From Methylococcaceae bacterium (GTDB lineage Bacteria > Pseudomonadota > Gammaproteobacteria > Methylococcales > Methylomonadaceae), in NCBI GenBank assembly GCA_006844585.1, contig SPJM01000250.1:1-53471 (forward strand): DNA of 53,471 nucleotides. Direction: 5' to 3'. Below, piece by piece: positions 19,699-29,682 of this stretch (within the stretch, counting starts at the first letter, position 1; each line of letters begins with the position of its first letter). The notes beneath the pieces were generated by a model. That model searched no databases, was not told where the DNA came from, and saw nothing but the letters and a program-made list of their open reading frames with translations. The position numbers were made by a program, and so were the translations under genes.

Positions 19699-20577
19699 AT
19701 GTTGAGAGCATTACTATTACTTTGCTTAGGCCTTTTCTTTTCAAATCCCTTATGGGCAAATTCAACGCAACCTGCAGTGGCTATCAAAGATCCGATTATA
19801 GGCGACTCTATTAATAAACATCTTTTAAAAAGATTGGATACCGATATTATCCGTTCTGAAATGGAGGCATCGATTAGGGCGACTCGGAAATTTCGGGTTT
19901 TAAGTCGGGATAAGCAGACTTTAAAAGCAGTTCTTGATGAGCAGGATTTTGCTAATTCGGATCTTGCCAAGGGAGATGCAGCAGGTTCGGGGCAGTTAAA
20001 TAATGCCCATTATTTATTAATTCCCACGGTGCAAGATTTCAAGTTTTATCGAAAGCATACCGCGCTTCCTAATTTTGACAGCAAATATAAACGCAAGGAT
20101 TGGGGCTTGTTACAAATCAGCGCACAAATGATAGATACCAAATCCGGACAAATAGTGACGACATTTGCTATGAAAGGTAGTTTTGCGACTAAAAATAAAG
20201 TAGTAAACAGTAATAGCGGAGCGCCTAGCAGCGTTTATTTTGCAAAAATGTCGAAACAAATTTCCGAGCAACTTGCCAATAAATTTGTCGCCCAAGTTTA
20301 TCCAATGAAAATTGTTAAGCGGACGCGGACGAACCAAGTCATAATTAATCGAGGTAATGATGGCGGGTTAAAAGTGGGTGAAAAACTCAATGTATATTTT
20401 GCAGGTGAAGCCTTAATTGATCCGGATACTGGGGAGTCGTTAGGTTCAAGTGAAGAATATATCGGCGCGGTAAAGGTTGTTCGAATCTTGCCTAAAGTCA
20501 CTTATGCAAAAGTAGTATCTGAAGAAGATCCAGAAGGTTTTCCTATGGGCGCGGGCAATATACTCAGAAAACCGTAA
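19699..20577 (+). CDS. Exported CsgG/FlgT-like protein
   Basis: 292 residues with a Sec signal peptide (about 1-21). Residues about 30-205 resemble the CsgG/LpoB-type nucleotide-binding-like fold (MEASIRATRKFRVLSRD, then HYLLIPTVQDF). The C-terminal about 75 residues match the FlgT C-terminal type, with VIINRGNDGGLKVGEKLNVY and ALIDPDTGESLGS. FlgT belongs to the Vibrio flagellar H-ring, but no flagellar gene is present here. AGGAG precedes the start. It opens the 19.7-26.3 kb exported-protein cluster, and a terminator follows it. Precise function unknown. Confidence 0.7.
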   Translation: MLRALLLLCLGLFFSNPLWANSTQPAVAIKDPIIGDSINKHLLKRLDTDIIRSEMEASIRATRKFRVLSRDKQTLKAVLDEQDFANSDLAKGDAAGSGQLNNAHYLLIPTVQDFKFYRKHTALPNFDSKYKRKDWGLLQISAQMIDTKSGQIVTTFAMKGSFATKNKVVNSNSGAPSSVYFAKMSKQISEQLANKFVAQVYPMKIVKRTRTNQVIINRGNDGGLKVGEKLNVYFAGEALIDPDTGESLGSSEEYIGAVKVVRILPKVTYAKVVSEEDPEGFPMGAGNILRKP

Positions 20578-20600
20578 TGTTGTTTAGTGTACTCAATTTT

Positions 20601-20629
20601 TGCGCAGCGTTATTGCTGCGCATTTTTTT
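20601..20629 (+). terminator. Rho-independent terminator
   Basis: Stem TGCGCAGC / GCTGCGCA with a 6-base loop followed by seven T. It lies 23 bases after the CsgG/FlgT-like gene, so the next gene probably has its own promoter or depends on read-through. Confidence 0.88.
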
Positions 20630-20676
20630 ATTAACGGATTAAGCAGTTAAATTTTTAACTTGATTTTGGGGCTGGT

Positions 20677-22560
20677 ATGAATTTACAAACATTTATTCGT
20701 TTCAAACATTTTTTCATTTTCCTGATTTTCGGATTCGTTCTTGTTGCTTGTGAAAATAAAGAAACCGACAAGGATTCGGCAGGATTATCGGGTTCGAACA
20801 ATGGGCCGATAAATATCATTGTATTGGGAAACAATGATTTTTTTCCAGACCGGGCTGTTCAGCAAAATTTAGGGTTGCCGGAGAGTTTGGCTGCGCGCAT
20901 TATTGAGAATTTGCAGCAGAGCAAGCGATTTAATGTTTTAGAGCGTACGGCGCTAAGAAAAGTTGTTAATGAGCAGCAATTTAATCAAGAAGAAAAACAA
21001 TCTTTTTTGGATAAAACACTTGATGCTGTTACCGATAATATTTCAGATGTGAGCGGCTACACAGTTAAGTGGGCGAGTATTGCATCAGATCATAATGACA
21101 TTGTCAAAGAGTTTCAGGATTTGGGAACGGCTTTAGGCTCAGATTATATTGTTTTTGCGGTATTAGAGAAGGTTGTTGAAAAAGTCAAAAGCACAGCGAT
21201 TCCATACAGTCAAAGTGATAAAAAAATTCATCATGAAACTTTGGATGCCCGCTTAAGATTAAGAGTGATTAACTCCAAAACCGGCATGATAGTTGGCGCC
21301 ACCAGTTTCAGAACCAAAGTGAAACAAAGTTTATTAGCGGGTCGGGAGTCTAAAAACGATCAATATTCCAGTTATGATCATATCGGCGTTATCGCCTCCA
21401 GAAAGATTTTGGACATAGTCACTCCCGCCAGAATTGTCAGCTCTGATCCTTTTGTAATTAACAGGGGGGCAAATGACGGTTTTAATACCGGTGATAGTTA
21501 TGAAGTCGTACGGGAAGGAAAAGAAATCAGCGATCCTAATGGCTTGGTCTTGGGGAAGCTGACCATGCCGGTTGGAAGTCTTAAAGTTATCGATGTTCAA
21601 GAAACCATATCTGTTGTAGACAGTGAAGATGCGGCGCTGCAAATCGGTGATATGTTAAAAATGAAAGATGATGTAACATCTTTGGCGCAAAAAAACAATA
21701 AACCGGTAGAGAGGTCTTCAAAAGACGGTAAATTAACGATTGCGATTGGAAAGGTTCGTTTTAATTTAATCGGTCGTAATATTTTGTTGTCGGCCGACGA
21801 TTATCCAAGGATAAAAAGCGATTTGATGGTGAAATTACATAACACCAATCGTTTTGATGTTTTGGAAAGACAGGAAATGGATCAGGTTATCGATGAAAAA
21901 ACCTTTAATGCACTCATGCAAGATGATGAAATAGAACCTCATTTGCGGGAACTAATGGGCGCCGATTATATGGTTTTTACTCATGTTGATAAGTTCGCAA
22001 TTCGTTCGGAAAGTAAAAAAGTGCCGTATGTCGATAAAATACAAACCAGACATTACGGAGTGGTAGAGGCAACGCAAAGAATAGTTGATAGCCATACCGG
22101 AAAAATGCTGGCTGCTGATAAAATCCGTATTAATAAAAAACTGGATTATGAGACTAAAGGAAAGTCTGTAAATACTTATAGCAATTTAATTGATGAATTT
22201 ACCGATTTATTGGTCAGTAGAATAGTTGGACGTATTTATCCCATTAAAGTGCTAGCCGCGCTTCCGGATGGAACGGTATATATTAATCGAGGGGAAGATG
22301 GCAACTTAATAGTCGGCGGCGAATATGCTGTGATGAGACCCGGACAGGAGTTGATTGATCCTGATACAGGTATTTCCTTTGGTTCAGCAGAAGCCGAGAT
22401 AGGGCGAATTGAATTAACTTCGGTAGAGTCAGCGCGTTCTAAAGCGAAAATTGTTAAGGGAGAAGACTTTAAAGCGGGCGATATAGTGCGCGACATTGCA
22501 GATGATCAGAAGATGGCTAAACAGGAATCTCCTGTGAAGGTAAACCGTCCTAATTTCTAG
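20677..22560 (+). CDS. Lipoprotein with two CsgG/FlgT-like modules
   Basis: 627 residues with lipobox LVAC (Cys25), so an outer-membrane lipoprotein is likely. The protein is an internal duplication. Each half has a CsgG-like part (RFNVLERTALRKVVNEQ... and RFDVLERQEMDQVIDEK...) followed by a FlgT-C-like part (VINRGANDGFNTGDSYEVV and YINRGEDGNLIVGGEYAVM). Both halves resemble the single-module protein encoded upstream, which suggests gene duplication and fusion. Function unknown. Assembly into an envelope ring or scaffold is an inference from CsgG and FlgT. Confidence 0.7.
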   Translation: MNLQTFIRFKHFFIFLIFGFVLVACENKETDKDSAGLSGSNNGPINIIVLGNNDFFPDRAVQQNLGLPESLAARIIENLQQSKRFNVLERTALRKVVNEQQFNQEEKQSFLDKTLDAVTDNISDVSGYTVKWASIASDHNDIVKEFQDLGTALGSDYIVFAVLEKVVEKVKSTAIPYSQSDKKIHHETLDARLRLRVINSKTGMIVGATSFRTKVKQSLLAGRESKNDQYSSYDHIGVIASRKILDIVTPARIVSSDPFVINRGANDGFNTGDSYEVVREGKEISDPNGLVLGKLTMPVGSLKVIDVQETISVVDSEDAALQIGDMLKMKDDVTSLAQKNNKPVERSSKDGKLTIAIGKVRFNLIGRNILLSADDYPRIKSDLMVKLHNTNRFDVLERQEMDQVIDEKTFNALMQDDEIEPHLRELMGADYMVFTHVDKFAIRSESKKVPYVDKIQTRHYGVVEATQRIVDSHTGKMLAADKIRINKKLDYETKGKSVNTYSNLIDEFTDLLVSRIVGRIYPIKVLAALPDGTVYINRGEDGNLIVGGEYAVMRPGQELIDPDTGISFGSAEAEIGRIELTSVESARSKAKIVKGEDFKAGDIVRDIADDQKMAKQESPVKVNRPNF

Positions 22561-22601
22561 TTTTCAATTCATGCCGACAATGATCGAGAGAAGAGTATTA
22601 A

Positions 22602-24149
22602 ATGTATTTTAATTATTGTAAACAAATTATTTACTGGGTTATTTTGCTGATGCCTGTACACCAGGCTTTTGGGTTTGATTTGCTGAATACGCTGCAAACT
22701 ATTCAACAAACGATGCCTAATGCAAATAAATCTGCTACAACGGCTTCCAATAACCAGATTCGCGATTGGCGTAGCCAAACTAATCAACAAATTACCTATG
22801 AGGATTACTCCAAAGATTTTCAAGCGGTAAAAAAGTTAATTGCCGGTGGGCAAATGTCGCAAGCTTATCAAATAAAGAAAAAAGCTTTTGAATCTGAAGA
22901 GCCTGAATTTTTAAATTCCGTAGAATTAGGCCTACTTGCAATGGATACCGCAAATTCTAAGGGTGCTGTTGATGCTTTTTTTAAGGCAGAGAGGCATCTG
23001 AAGGAGATTATGGGAAGATCCGTTATTGAAGATGGTGTGACAGACTTGGGAACGGAGCTTATTAGCGCGGCAACCGGCATTGGTGATTTAACGGAATATA
23101 AAGGCGAGCCTTATGAGCGAATTCTGATGTTGAATTATAAGTCGATTGCCTATTTATTGAATGGCGAGCGAAAAGCCTATAATGTCACTCGTCGAGCTAT
23201 TGATTGGCAAAATATTGAAAAAAAGCAATTTGAGCAAAAAATCGGTGAAGTAAAAAAACAAGTCTCTAAACAGGAAAATGAAGCGACTACTGATGAAGAT
23301 GGTGAAGAGGCATCCAGCGCTTCTTCAAACGCCTTTTCGTTGATTTTTGATCAATATGCTCGTTTCAGAAAAAAAGCTAATAGTGTGAAAAGTGCTTATA
23401 TTAACCCTTTTGGGTACTATATGGCGGGTATTGTTCAGGAGTTTGATAGCTTTGAAGATAGTTCATTACGCGATAATGCGAGGATTTCTTATAAAAAAGC
23501 CGCAGACTTGAACCCCAGAAGTAAGGTCATTAAACAATCCGTCAAGCAAGTTGCTAAAAGGCCGCCAAGAAATAAACGATTAGTGCATGTTATTGCGGCA
23601 GATGGTTTTGCGCCGGAAAAAAAGACTTTTTCTTTTATGTTGCCGGTAGCAGGTCAATTAATTTCAATTAAAACACCGCTTTTTGAGCCGGTGCCGTCAG
23701 CGGTTAAATGGATAGTGATAAAGTCAGGTAAAAAAACCTTGGCGACGCTTTCTCCAATCGCTGATATTGAAGCGATTACGTTGAGGCATCAAATGGATAT
23801 GTTGCCGGTACAGCGTATGCGGGTGATGGCGTCGATTGGTCGCAATATCGGTGAAAATATGGTTTGGAATTCTTTGGGTGCTTTTGGTTCTTTAGGTAAG
23901 ATGATGAGGGAAGATTTTGCTAACCCCGATATGCGCGCCTGGATGTCATTACCAAAGCAAATTTCAGCAGCTCGTTTTTATGTCTCCAAATGGGTGAAAA
24001 ATATTAAGATTATCAGTTACGATAAAAGATGGCGAGTGTTGGCTACTAAAAAGGTGAAACTAAATAAAAAGTCACATAATTTTATTTATGTTCGCAGTAT
24101 TGAAAAAAGTCTTAATGCACAAATCAACAAAAAACTTTGGGTGAACTAA
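22602..24149 (+). CDS. Exported TPR-like protein, COG3014 type
   Basis: 515 residues with a signal peptide (about 1-25, cleavage near AFGFD). Residues 60-330 are helical and TPR-like, with the phrases INPFGYYMAGIVQEF and DNARISYKKAADLNPRSK, which I recognise from the COG3014 family. A charged coiled-coil insertion (about 205-245) interrupts this region. The C-terminal about 190 residues are beta-rich. COG3014 genes often sit beside YcfL and LpoB genes, as here. The signal lacks a lipobox, unlike many relatives. Function unknown. Confidence 0.65.
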   Translation: MYFNYCKQIIYWVILLMPVHQAFGFDLLNTLQTIQQTMPNANKSATTASNNQIRDWRSQTNQQITYEDYSKDFQAVKKLIAGGQMSQAYQIKKKAFESEEPEFLNSVELGLLAMDTANSKGAVDAFFKAERHLKEIMGRSVIEDGVTDLGTELISAATGIGDLTEYKGEPYERILMLNYKSIAYLLNGERKAYNVTRRAIDWQNIEKKQFEQKIGEVKKQVSKQENEATTDEDGEEASSASSNAFSLIFDQYARFRKKANSVKSAYINPFGYYMAGIVQEFDSFEDSSLRDNARISYKKAADLNPRSKVIKQSVKQVAKRPPRNKRLVHVIAADGFAPEKKTFSFMLPVAGQLISIKTPLFEPVPSAVKWIVIKSGKKTLATLSPIADIEAITLRHQMDMLPVQRMRVMASIGRNIGENMVWNSLGAFGSLGKMMREDFANPDMRAWMSLPKQISAARFYVSKWVKNIKIISYDKRWRVLATKKVKLNKKSHNFIYVRSIEKSLNAQINKKLWVN

Positions 24150-24150
24150 A

Positions 24151-24606
24151 ATGACTCATTTAAGAATTATAATGATGTGCTTATTATTTTTTGTATCAGC
24201 CTGTTCGGTGAACAAAGGAGCAAATCAGCAATATCTTGCGCAGAGAACAATTGATGATACACATCCAAGGGCAACTTTGATATTAGGGTCAACAGAATTG
24301 GTTAATAATATATTGATTACTAATGTTAAAGTCGGACAGCTCGGCTTGCTGCCACGAGCTGGCATTGATGTGCAGAATTTAACAGATGATCGTTACAATT
24401 TAGAATATAAAATTGTCTGGCGGGATAAGCAAGGTTTTCCGATCAATGTCAGTAATGTATGGCACCGATTTGTATTAAGCCCTAGGAAAATAAAAAGTTT
24501 CCAAAGTATGGGTAAAACAGAAGATGCTTATTCTATACAGTTCACAGTACGATTTCCGGACGATTTGTTTATCGAATCAGATCGGCAATTAGAAAGAAAC
24601 AGATAA
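24151..24606 (+). CDS. YcfL family (DUF1425) lipoprotein
   Basis: 151 residues with lipobox FVSAC (Cys18). The mature part matches the YcfL/DUF1425 pattern (GLLPRAGIDVQNLTDDRYNL, IVWRDKQGFPI). In E. coli, ycfL neighbours lpoB, and the same adjacency is seen here. It begins one base after the COG3014-type gene and ends 27 bases before lpoB. An immunoglobulin-like fold is expected for the family. The role is unknown but probably linked to the adjacent LpoB. Confidence 0.75.
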   Translation: MTHLRIIMMCLLFFVSACSVNKGANQQYLAQRTIDDTHPRATLILGSTELVNNILITNVKVGQLGLLPRAGIDVQNLTDDRYNLEYKIVWRDKQGFPINVSNVWHRFVLSPRKIKSFQSMGKTEDAYSIQFTVRFPDDLFIESDRQLERNR

Positions 24607-24633
24607 AACTATCAATATTAAGGAATGAAAAAT

Positions 24634-25155
24634 ATGAAAAAATTATTTATCTTTGTTACCAGTGTTTTCATTTTAACCGGTTGTGGCCAGTCACAATTAG
24701 GCAGTCAATCCAGAGTTTCCATTCTGGATGATTCCAGCCGGGCGCATTTGCAAGCGGAATTGACGATGGCGGATTATACGGCTTTTGCCGAGAAAGTCAC
24801 TAATAAAATGATGGCCTCCAGGTTAGTGCAAAGTTGGGGAAATAAACGTCCTCGGTTGGTAGTAGGAAAAATGCGTAACAATACCGACAATGAAAGTATT
24901 AGAATGCAAGATATCTATGACCGCATCTCCGAAACTATCTTGGCATCGGGCTTGGTAAGGTTAATGGATAAATCAGCTACTTCTTTTGAGTATGTGGTTA
25001 ATACGGAATTATCTTCAACTCGTCAATATGGTGCTGGCGGTGAAGAACTGGCGTATTTTAAACTCGAATTTAAGATGTTTAGAATTGATGGCGAAATGGT
25101 CGGTCAATGGTCGGATGTCTTGCCGTTGGGAAAGGCCAGTCGCCGTTTCTTATAA
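24634..25155 (+). CDS. lpoB: LpoB-like penicillin-binding protein activator lipoprotein
   Basis: 173 residues from the chosen ATG. The lipobox is LTGC, followed by an LpoB-type domain (RPRLVVGKMRNNTDNESIRM... and TELSSTRQYGAGGEELAYFK). In E. coli LpoB is an outer-membrane lipoprotein that activates PBP1b. An ATG at 24625 abuts the AAGGA at 24620-24624, so the ATG at 24634, 9 bases downstream, is the better start. No pbp gene is in this window, so PBP1b activation is inferred from the family only. Confidence 0.8.
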   Translation: MKKLFIFVTSVFILTGCGQSQLGSQSRVSILDDSSRAHLQAELTMADYTAFAEKVTNKMMASRLVQSWGNKRPRLVVGKMRNNTDNESIRMQDIYDRISETILASGLVRLMDKSATSFEYVVNTELSSTRQYGAGGEELAYFKLEFKMFRIDGEMVGQWSDVLPLGKASRRFL

Positions 25156-25259
25156 TAAAAACTTTTATGCTTCCAAATTCCGTTGTGTCATGAAAATGAG
25201 GGGGAATTTGGAAAAGGTTTTGTTGTTAAAGTTTTTTGAGTTTTGTAAGGCCTAGGAAT

Positions 25260-26330
25260 ATGAAAATTATTTTCAAAGTTTTTTTGATGTTTTGTCTGAC
25301 ATTTTCGGTACAGGCCGCTCAAAAAACTGCTTTAGTGATAGGGAATTCAAACTATCCGAATCTGGGAAAGCTGGATAACCCGGTCAATGATGCGGCGGAT
25401 ATTTCGGAAAAGTTGCGTATTTTAGGTTTTGATGTCGATGATAAATACGATCTTGATAGACGTCAAATGCGCAACGCGATCCGGGAATACGCTAGAAAGT
25501 TAAAGAAAAAAGGGGGGGGAGGAATTTTTTTTTATGCTGGTCATGGTATGCAGGTTAAAGGAAAAAATTATTTGATTCCAATTAATACGGATATTCAATC
25601 TGAGTTTGAAGTGCCCGATGAAGCGGTTGAGGCGGATATGTTGTTGCGCTCATTAGAAGATGCTGGCAATCCGTTAAATATTGTTGTTTTAGATGCTTGT
25701 CGAAATAATCCGTTTGCCAGAAGTTTCCGCTCTTCGGAAAAAGGGTTAGCGCGTATGGAAGGGGGGTCCGGTACACTGATTGCCTATTCCACTGCGCCGG
25801 GTAAAACGGCTAGCGATGGCGCGCCGGGTGGAAGAAATAGCCCCTATGCCAAACATTTATTAAAAAATATGACTAAAACCGGGTTGTCAATTGAGCAGGT
25901 TTTTAAACGAGTTCGGGTTGGCGTTGAAGACGATACGAATGGGACGCAAACGCCTTGGGAGACTTCTTCATTACGCAGTGATTTTTACTTCGTTCCAAGT
26001 CATATTCCATCACCGGTTCAGAATGTTGAACAATCTAAGCCGGTTCTGCCCGTAAAACAACCGGTTGTTGCAAAGGTTGAAAGTGCTCCTGTTGCAGTTG
26101 AACAGCCTCGCACCCAAATGCAAGGCCCTAAGTTGATTATATACACAAACCCGGAAGAAGCTAATGTAAAGGTTTCCAATGTATCCGGATCTTATCGCCC
26201 CGGTATGATGCTTTCTCCAGGAGATTATCGTATTACAGTCAGTAAAGATGGTTTTCGCAGTACTAAACAATGGATTACCATAGATAAAGATGACGTAAAT
26301 TTACAGGTCACTTTGGTGCCGGAAATGTAA
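25260..26330 (+). CDS. Exported caspase-like peptidase with C-terminal PEGA domain
   Basis: 356 residues: a signal peptide (about 1-20, cleavage near VQAA), a caspase p20-like domain (C14 family, 22-245), a proline-rich linker (250-288) and a PEGA domain (291-356). The catalytic dyad is visible as His95 (FYAGHG) and Cys147 (LDACRNNPF). The signal peptide predicts a periplasmic or envelope location. It ends the LpoB/YcfL/CsgG-like cluster. The TTG at 25236 is rejected in favour of the ATG. The homopolymer run A6-G8-AGGAA-T9 lies just before the His95 codon. Confidence 0.88.
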   Translation: MKIIFKVFLMFCLTFSVQAAQKTALVIGNSNYPNLGKLDNPVNDAADISEKLRILGFDVDDKYDLDRRQMRNAIREYARKLKKKGGGGIFFYAGHGMQVKGKNYLIPINTDIQSEFEVPDEAVEADMLLRSLEDAGNPLNIVVLDACRNNPFARSFRSSEKGLARMEGGSGTLIAYSTAPGKTASDGAPGGRNSPYAKHLLKNMTKTGLSIEQVFKRVRVGVEDDTNGTQTPWETSSLRSDFYFVPSHIPSPVQNVEQSKPVLPVKQPVVAKVESAPVAVEQPRTQMQGPKLIIYTNPEEANVKVSNVSGSYRPGMMLSPGDYRITVSKDGFRSTKQWITIDKDDVNLQVTLVPEM

Positions 26331-27270: not shown

Positions 27271-27394
27271 TAATTTTCATAATATTCTATTTAGAGGGTG
27301 GGGTGGCATGTTAACCTTTAAAAACAAGGTGTTAAAATTGAGCAAGTGCGCCCGTTAATATTTTTCGCAGCTTGCTTATAAATTGAAAATACTT

Positions 27395-28930
27395 ATGACA
27401 GAACCTCCCTTATATTTTGAATTGCCTGGCAGTCTAAAAGGTAAAAAGTTTTTTTCTAAAATAGAAAAAAAACTGCTACTGCAAATTACCGGCCAGCATT
27501 ATGCTATTAAAACCTTTTACGATACATTTGATTGGCGTTTATATCGAGCCGGTGTGGTCGCTGAGCATATTCATTCAAAAGATGTATCTCAATTCAACTT
27601 AATAAACCGGAAAACCGGGCGACTCCTAGCTTCTGATAGCCTGGAAACCGCGCCTAACTTTGCGCAGCAGTTTTCCTCTCAGGCTTTAAAATCGATTTTG
27701 TTGCCGATTATGGAAATGAGAGCCTTGTTACAAGTCAGTCATTTGCCGCTGGAAATTTATCGCGCCAATATTCTGAATAAAGATGAGAAGACCGTTTTAC
27801 GGTTACAACTTGATGATTACGAATCATTATCCGGAAGAATTCATTTGTTGCCCTTGAGAGGTTACGGTAAATCTCTTAACAAGGTTGCCGCAGTGCTTCA
27901 GAGTGACTTATCCGTTAAGCCTGCGAGTTGTTCTGTATTGCCTGAAGCGCTTCAATTACAAGGACGTGAAGTCAAAGATTACAGCTCGAAGTTTTCATTG
28001 AAATTAAAGCCTGATATGCGGGCTGATCAGGCGGCCAAACTAATTTTTAAGACGTTATTGGCGGATATTAAATTGAACGAGGCCAATACGATTACCGATG
28101 TTGATACTGAATTTCTACATGATTTTCGGGTGGCGGTGCGGAGAACCCGGTCTGGTTTAAATCAGATTCGTGGGGCGTTGCCTGAAACCGCCGTTAAAAA
28201 ATACAGTGAGTTTTTCGCCTGGTTGGGGCAGATCACCAGTTTAACGCGCGATTTAGATGTCTATTTATTAAGCTATCAGGATTATCGTGGGGTGTTGCCG
28301 ATTGCGATGCAAGACGATTTAGAACCCTTATATGCTTTTTTAAAAGAAAAGCAAATTAAGGCGCAAAAAAATTTGGCTGAAAGATTAGTCAGCGCTAAAT
28401 ACCAGAAGGGTTTGATTGAATGGGAAGAATTTTTAAATAAGCAAGTCTCCAAAAAAGCCAAAGCTAATCAAGGCAATTTGAGTATTAAGGCGTTGGCGGA
28501 TCAACGTATTTGGAAAGTTTATTGTAAACTGATGAGTGAAGGCGGCGTGATTGATGATCAATCGCCGCCGGAATCTCTGCATGATCTCCGAAAGACCTGT
28601 AAAAAGCTGCGTTATTTATTGGAGTTTTTTCAAAGTCTTTATGATGAAACGGAAATGAAAACTTTGATAAAGGCATTAAAAGGTTTGCAAACTGTTTTAG
28701 GCGACTTTCAGGATTATGAAGTGCAGGAGAACAATATCAAAACGTTTAGTCAGGAAATGATGGAGAATCATGTCGGCGGCAATGCCATTTTAGCGATGGG
28801 CGTATTAATTCAGCATTTAGATGCAAAAAAGCGTGACGCTCGGGAGCATTTTTCCGATCAGTTTGCCGGGTTTGCCAATCAGGATATTAAACGAATTTTT
28901 GAAAAATTGTTTTTCCGAAAAAAAGTTTAG
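27395..28930 (+). CDS. CYTH-like/CHAD domain protein
   Basis: 511 residues from the ATG at 27395 (a TTG at 27383 is less likely). The N-terminal about 200 residues resemble a degenerate CYTH tunnel domain (FYDTFDWRLYRAGV), but the ExExK signature is not seen. The rest is a CHAD domain with conserved histidines in FLHDFRVAVRRTRSGL (His242) and LHDLRKTCKKLRYLLEFF (His396). CHAD domains bind inorganic polyphosphate and localise to granules in several bacteria. The gene ends 8 bases before a ParA-family gene and follows a candidate Pho box. Enzymatic activity is doubtful. Confidence 0.85.
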   Translation: MTEPPLYFELPGSLKGKKFFSKIEKKLLLQITGQHYAIKTFYDTFDWRLYRAGVVAEHIHSKDVSQFNLINRKTGRLLASDSLETAPNFAQQFSSQALKSILLPIMEMRALLQVSHLPLEIYRANILNKDEKTVLRLQLDDYESLSGRIHLLPLRGYGKSLNKVAAVLQSDLSVKPASCSVLPEALQLQGREVKDYSSKFSLKLKPDMRADQAAKLIFKTLLADIKLNEANTITDVDTEFLHDFRVAVRRTRSGLNQIRGALPETAVKKYSEFFAWLGQITSLTRDLDVYLLSYQDYRGVLPIAMQDDLEPLYAFLKEKQIKAQKNLAERLVSAKYQKGLIEWEEFLNKQVSKKAKANQGNLSIKALADQRIWKVYCKLMSEGGVIDDQSPPESLHDLRKTCKKLRYLLEFFQSLYDETEMKTLIKALKGLQTVLGDFQDYEVQENNIKTFSQEMMENHVGGNAILAMGVLIQHLDAKKRDAREHFSDQFAGFANQDIKRIFEKLFFRKKV

Positions 28931-28938
28931 AGGCGCCG

Positions 28939-29682
28939 ATGAAGATAATTGCGAGTTACAATATTAAAGGCGGCGTCGGAAAAACGTCTACGGCAGTCAA
29001 CTTGGCCTTTTTGGCTGCTAGTCATCAACATAATACCTTGGTTTGGGATTTGGATCCGCAAGGCGCCAGCAGTTATTATTTTAGAGTAAAACCTAAAGTG
29101 AAAGGCGGCGGAAAGAAACTCATTTCCGGACGACGAGAACTTGATGGCGTCATTAAAGCGACGGATTTTGAGTATTTGGATTTACTGCCGGCGGATTTTT
29201 CTTTCCGAAATTTGGATTTGGCTCTGGACGCCAATAAAAAACCAACCCAACGACTGAAGAGATTGTTAAAGCCCTTGGCGGATGAATATGATTATGTTTT
29301 TTTAGATTGCCCGCCGAATATTTCATTGCTATCCGAAGCTGTGTTTGAGGCCTCCGAAGTGCTGTTATCGCCGATTATTCCGACAACGCTTTCCTTGCGC
29401 ACTCTGGAGCAATTAAAAAAATATATCAAAGATAAGCAGTTAAGCCATTTACAATTGATGCCGTTTTTTTCGATGGTGGATAATCGAAAAAAAATGCATA
29501 AAGAAATGATGCAAACGGTCGTTGAAAAACATCCTGAAATCCTTGCCGCTAGCATACCTTATGCCAGTGATATTGAAAAAATGGGATTGGAGCGTATGCC
29601 TTTAGGCGCTTTTATGCAAAAGGGGCGTTCTTTGTTGGCTTATCAGTCCTTATGGACGGAGTTAATGGAAAAGATGGAGTAA
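28939..29682 (+). CDS. ParA/MinD-family ATPase
   Basis: 247 residues with a deviant Walker A motif (KGGVGKTS, signature Lys10, catalytic Lys15), a Walker A' motif (WDLDPQGASS) and a Walker B motif (YVFLDCPPNIS). ParA-type ATPases position plasmids, chromosomes or protein cargoes. No parB or parS is adjacent, so this is an orphan ParA whose cargo is probably specified by its neighbour. It lies 8 bases behind the CHAD gene, with GAGGCG as ribosome-binding site, so the two are co-transcribed. Confidence 0.92.
   Translation: MKIIASYNIKGGVGKTSTAVNLAFLAASHQHNTLVWDLDPQGASSYYFRVKPKVKGGGKKLISGRRELDGVIKATDFEYLDLLPADFSFRNLDLALDANKKPTQRLKRLLKPLADEYDYVFLDCPPNISLLSEAVFEASEVLLSPIIPTTLSLRTLEQLKKYIKDKQLSHLQLMPFFSMVDNRKKMHKEMMQTVVEKHPEILAASIPYASDIEKMGLERMPLGAFMQKGRSLLAYQSLWTELMEKME

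Follow-up and report, generated by a model that had tools for sequence, protein, structure and literature searches.

To our knowledge, the biological roles of bacterial caspases are mostly unknown. Metacaspases and orthocaspases resemble the caspase reported here in the Peptidase_C14 domain, the His/Cys dyad, and the N-terminal export signal, and one survey of them assigned cell-surface functions to 16 of the 217 metacaspase operons, flagellar proteins being one of its indicators (PMC3501461). In the section of the survey consulted, a fixed link to a COG3014-YcfL-LpoB gene module is not described. The described envelope systems closest to the locus are FlgT (the H-ring protein of the polar flagellum), CsgG (the curli secretion channel), and the gammaproteobacterial COG3014-YcfL-LpoB cluster. 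With the last of these, the locus has all three families and their order in common, and in the cluster, too, a CsgG-like gene precedes COG3014 in L081, L088, and L093. The locus differs from it in that the LpoB-like product is about 30 aa shorter, a multi-unit CsgG/FlgT-like protein is extra, and a caspase is added. The initial annotation had suggested that an envelope assembly with its own protease would be a new combination. Only the added caspase and the divergence of the core are new, since the grouping COG3014-YcfL-LpoB, whether or not a CsgG-like gene precedes it, is common among gammaproteobacteria. In the open-access literature, we found neither this divergent core, in which FlgT-like units are repeated, nor the fixed position of an exported caspase, nor any paper that treats CsgG jointly with caspase and PEGA, or FlgT jointly with CsgG and LpoB.

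Organization of the six-gene locus

The window, that is, the whole stretch of 53,471 nucleotides that was analyzed, lies on contig C169 of the 3.68 Mb draft genome of a methane-oxidising bacterium, and the named loci of its close relatives are those of Methylococcales. As initially annotated, six consecutive open reading frames occupy positions 19699–26330 on the + strand. By Pfam and NCBIfam, g1 and g2 belong to CsgG and have FlgT_C-like tails, g4 is DUF1425/YcfL, g5 is in part LpoB, and g6 carries Peptidase_C14 and PEGA. The features are as follows.

19699..20577, +: g1, 292-aa CsgG/FlgT-like protein with one unit and an export signal (domains: CsgG/LpoB fold, FlgT_C-like; orthologues in other core loci)
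20601..20622, +: intrinsic-terminator-like hairpin between g1 and g2 (9 pairs, 6 of them GC, followed by a T tract)
20677..22560, +: g2, lipoprotein, 627 aa, two tandem g1-like units at residues ~45–328 and ~353–606 (Pfam; Foldseek match to FlgT 3w1e)
22602..24149, +: g3, exported COG3014-type protein, TPR-like helices and then a mostly beta C-terminal part (profile comparison, model)
24151..24606, +: g4, YcfL/DUF1425 lipoprotein (E = 6e-12)
24625..25155, +: g5, short LpoB-like lipoprotein, 176 aa (Pfam/NCBIfam, profile comparison)
25260..26330, +: g6, exported caspase, Peptidase_C14 with His95/Cys147 and a C-terminal PEGA domain (Pfam E = 1.3e-42; conserved dyad)

The suggestion that all six products carry export signals was confirmed by eye: signal peptides were read in g1, g3, and g6, and lipoboxes in g2 (LVAC), g4 (VSAC), and g5 (LTGC), none of which has Asp at +2. 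The start of g6 is most likely the ATG at 25260, not the TTG at 25236, and the earlier numbering of the catalytic Cys147 is right from this ATG. Flagellar and curli genes had been stated to be absent; the genome does have flagellin genes, which lie outside the window. Downstream of the cluster, positions 27383–29682 of the window encode a CHAD-domain protein and then a ParA-like ATPase.

The hairpin between g1 and g2 is the strongest terminator-like site of the region, and because of this predicted terminator the six genes may not be a single transcript. The interval from g5 to g6 showed no terminator-like site. The number of such sites in the region (5) was not above that expected in shuffled sequences (6.4).

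Relationship of the core genes to known families

In the Pfam search, g1 gave a weak CsgG match above the cut-off and sub-threshold matches to FlgT_C and FlgT_M, and g2 gave CsgG matches in two stretches and a FlgT_C match above the cut-off. The orthologues of g1 at the other core loci compared share 47–80% identity. The g2 protein consists of tandem copies of the g1 unit: there are two copies here and three in Neptunomonas and in the genome G375, while G051 has two complete copies and part of a third. The best Foldseek match of the g2 model (mean pLDDT 65, a moderate confidence) is FlgT (3w1e, E = 3e-13), with the flagellar LPHT ring also at the top; lower matches include CsgG, PelC, and further lipoproteins that share this domain class; when the alignment was inspected again, the FlgT match covered mainly unit 2. 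The kinship with FlgT claimed initially is thus supported by the fold search of g2, and the FlgT_C-like domain is a further likeness. There are also clear differences from FlgT: g2 is not located beside flagellar genes, it has two or three repeated units, and among the FlgT domain set (FlgT_N, FlgT_M, and FlgT_C) only FlgT_C was above the Pfam cut-off, FlgT_M not being reported for g2 and lying below the cut-off in g1, and FlgT_N being unmatched.

No Pfam match was obtained for g3. Its profile matched those of the classic COG3014-type proteins in hhalign (99.95%, E = 1.2e-37), with 18–21% identity in the alignment, and in other gammaproteobacteria the genes of these proteins stand ahead of those of YcfL and LpoB; COG3014 is the name that we take, from gene context, to apply to this family. 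The g3 model is good (pLDDT 81); among its structural matches in the PDB none reached E ≤ 0.001, and the weak ones are TPR proteins. As for g5, the LpoB Pfam match spans residues 52–120, and the profile comparison with LpoB of other gammaproteobacteria gave 97.9% (E = 3.5e-13) with a gap of ~28 residues. The score of g5 was below the cut-off of the LpoB equivalog TIGR02722 in NCBIfam (41.3 vs. 110.55 bits), and its profile search of the PDB by sequence retrieved no LpoB structure. The gene initially called that of LpoB is consequently a homologue, but a short one from which a segment of ~28 residues is absent. A fuller LpoB-family match exists elsewhere in the genome in G127, G612, and G534. 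Tandem duplicates of g5 were seen in G127 (L066:10831-11958) and G612 (L099:4053-5221). The COG3014, YcfL, and LpoB homologues are adjacent in this order in the window, and the core there is a divergent variant of the ordinary gammaproteobacterial cluster; G612 carries both the classic and the divergent versions.

Distribution and history of the core and the caspase

Among 311 Methylococcales genomes, close g3 homologues (at least 44% identity) were found in 12; L016 and L017, which come from the same genomes as G641 and G534, were counted once. The order g1–g5 is kept in 11 of the 12 genomes read, and in G612 it is seen from g2 on, where the contig begins. It is also found in Neptunomonas and in G375 (another order), the latter with a YdjM-like gene between g1 and g2. 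The flanking genes vary between lineages. Beside the core of G127 (L066:1043-5100), divergent envelope genes were observed: a DUF4384 protein (under the cut-off), an MltC_N/SLT transglycosylase, and an LPP20 lipoprotein.

A full-length g6-type caspase (49–65% identity) occurs in 6 of the 311 genomes (G000, G011, G533, G534, G641, and G127), and all six are located directly after g5 on the same strand, with gaps of ~31–104 bases; in G127 the caspase follows the second g5 copy. The next best caspase of the order scores 287 bits, compared with at least 344 bits for these six, and no free-standing full-length g6-type caspase was found in the 311 genomes. By hand calculation, the chance that all six fall within the 12 core genomes is ~8e-10 if genomes are independent, and shared ancestry leaves few true events. 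The core lacks a caspase at this position in G004, G005, G051, G073, and G084, two of these genomes being of the same genus, and also in Neptunomonas; the G084 contig stops ~150 bases past g5. In G612, the contig ends ~240 bases past the second g5. The co-occurrence of all six families, initially put forward as a check, was therefore verified in one direction only: the caspase is always with the core (6/6), but the core occurs without it in five genomes and Neptunomonas. Within the order, the caspase depends on the module and the module does not depend on the caspase, which is accessory because the core occurs without it.

The concatenated core tree has the form ((G000,(G011,G533),(G641,G534)),((G004,G005),(G127,G612)),outgroups), with support of 93–100% throughout. 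The six caspases of the cluster also group together in a 69-caspase tree, five being joined at 100/98 and that of G127 being added at 93/50. These trees fit a putative single gain, in the ancestor from which the family's version of the cluster descends, and a loss in G004/G005; the caspase was lost at least once. Transfer of the cluster between lineages is suggested, because G000 is separated from its genus mates in the core tree: its core is nearer to those of other genera (up to 65% identity in g3) than to those of its own genus (52%).

Caspases of another kind were also found near such genes. In G375, g1 is immediately preceded, on its own strand, by a different caspase, which carries FGE-sulfatase and PEGA domains and belongs to a lineage other than that of g6 (92/93 in the 69-caspase tree). 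Caspases of the G375 lineage in G046, G534, G127, and G033 adjoin lipoproteins of 404–436 aa with SH3_3 and CsgG/FlgO/LpoB-type domains, and in G612 a further such lipoprotein adjoins the apparent end of a caspase gene. The loci at which these lipoproteins (404–437 aa) stand beside exported caspases of this other lineage are as follows.

L103:4063-6725
L107:4954-7823
L108:1758-6103
L109:2155-5046
L167:26-1952 (here with no more than the C-terminal part of a caspase-like sequence, where the contig ends)

Caspase loci adjoining SH3_3-CsgG/FlgO lipoproteins are a minority of the ~60 inspected. A general CsgG-caspase link across the class was also considered and rejected: when the positions of CsgG and caspase genes were compared by coordinates, only G375 and G362 were found besides the window genome. 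The link between caspases and CsgG/FlgT-type genes is recurrent, not general. In G362, an unrelated gammaproteobacterium, a CsgG-family gene (L122, contig C142; 13125-13901, +) lies within ~10 kb of two caspase domains of other types. The window genome has four more caspase-domain genes, on contigs C289, C246, C275, and C179, all outside the window.

Properties of the caspase

Besides the caspase fold domain (Peptidase_C14, PF00656), g6 has the His/Cys dyad, and both His95 and Cys147 are invariant across 12 caspases. Its pairwise dN/dS values are 0.10–0.15 (0.015–0.113 for the core); because of these values, g6 is judged from its sequence to be a functional gene under purifying selection. Of the PDB entries, the paracaspase MALT1, which cuts after arginine, matched g6 best, and the alignment of LDACR in g6 with LDMCR in MALT1 suggests a specificity for basic residues. 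Co-variation did not point to a particular substrate: among the Lys/Arg sites, 6 of 146 were conserved where the caspase is present but not retained in G004/G005, which is no excess over D/E (7/122) or S/T (11/99). A role in anti-phage defence was likewise rejected; PADLOC gave one partial caspase match (35 bits, profile positions 5–130 of 453) and no match for g1–g5.

Proposed function and alternative explanations

The reading that we prefer, with a probability of roughly 0.4, is that g1–g5 would form one periplasm-facing assembly, anchored in the outer membrane and tied to PBP1b via g5, and that the g6 caspase would cut an envelope protein. The FlgT-like units of g1 and of the multi-unit lipoprotein g2 would serve as a ring or scaffold, g3 may be a TPR adaptor, and YcfL (g4) and the LpoB-like g5 would be two lipoproteins of the assembly. 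A protein with a UB2H domain is present in 12 of the 13 core genomes (only core genomes were counted). The g5 product would likely touch the UB2H domain of PBP1b and thereby bear on local peptidoglycan synthesis; we are unsure of this contact, because g5 is without a segment of the canonical LpoB. The caspase would be a later addition exported to the same compartment as g1–g5, where it would most likely cut an envelope protein after a basic residue, so that the assembly is matured, remodelled, or turned over. Points that speak against this reading are the cores that have no caspase, the terminator-like site after g1, the fuller LpoB-family matches elsewhere in G127, G612, and G534, the lack of an excess of Lys/Arg sites, and the moderate confidence of the g2 model.

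The caspase may instead be a passenger that joined a transferable gene block once, has been inherited with it, and acts independently of g1–g5. The apparent movement of the cluster between lineages, its low GC content (39.5%, compared with 42–45% in the flanks), and the persistence of the core without the caspase are in keeping with this. However, adjacency and orientation are conserved even between copies that share 49% identity, and in all of four genera, none of the full-length g6-type caspases in the 311 genomes is free-standing, and a caspase of the other lineage adjoins the same core in G375. We consider this explanation rather unlikely. The fold matches of g2 to FlgT and the LPHT ring, together with the match of its FlgT_C-like region to TsaP of the type IV pilus and the flagellin genes in 13 of 13 core genomes tested (core genomes only), would suit a ring that is accessory to the flagellum or to some other appendage of the cell surface, in which g1 and g2 are FlgT-like and the remaining products provide anchorage to the outer membrane and peptidoglycan. 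Against this, no flagellar gene was recognised by name beside the core loci read, the core is restricted to 12 of 311 genomes, and the FlgT domain set is incomplete as described above; such a ring is rather unlikely.

Export of the caspase or another substrate through a CsgG-type outer-membrane pore made of g1/g2 was also considered, as CsgG is found both among the Pfam matches above the cut-off and among the fold matches. The sequence match to CsgG, however, ends at chain residue 176, and what we take to be the second transmembrane hairpin of CsgG lies after this residue. In the g2 model, whose pLDDT is moderate, the last strand is followed after only ~4 residues by the next helix, which would leave no room for that hairpin. 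An extra FlgT_C-like domain also distinguishes g1 and g2 from the channel, and in other lineages most copies of the core have no caspase. As the match does not reach the second hairpin, a secretion pore is unlikely, and we give it very little credence.

Returning to the envelope assembly with its own protease, the position of the caspase, directly after the module and nowhere else, suggests that the protease works on or with the module. A wider and quite speculative idea is that exported caspases are built-in regulators of gammaproteobacterial envelope assemblies of the CsgG/FlgT/FlgO fold, which would be switched by a cut after a basic residue; signs of it would be the two caspase lineages beside this core, one of which also stands beside SH3-CsgG/FlgO lipoproteins. 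If true, caspases would here be tied to cell-envelope control and not to cell death. An exported, apparently catalytically intact caspase that is confined to one envelope module provides a small and testable set of candidate substrates, and the module may also help to reveal what COG3014 and YcfL do, two families next to LpoB that are widespread but have received little study.
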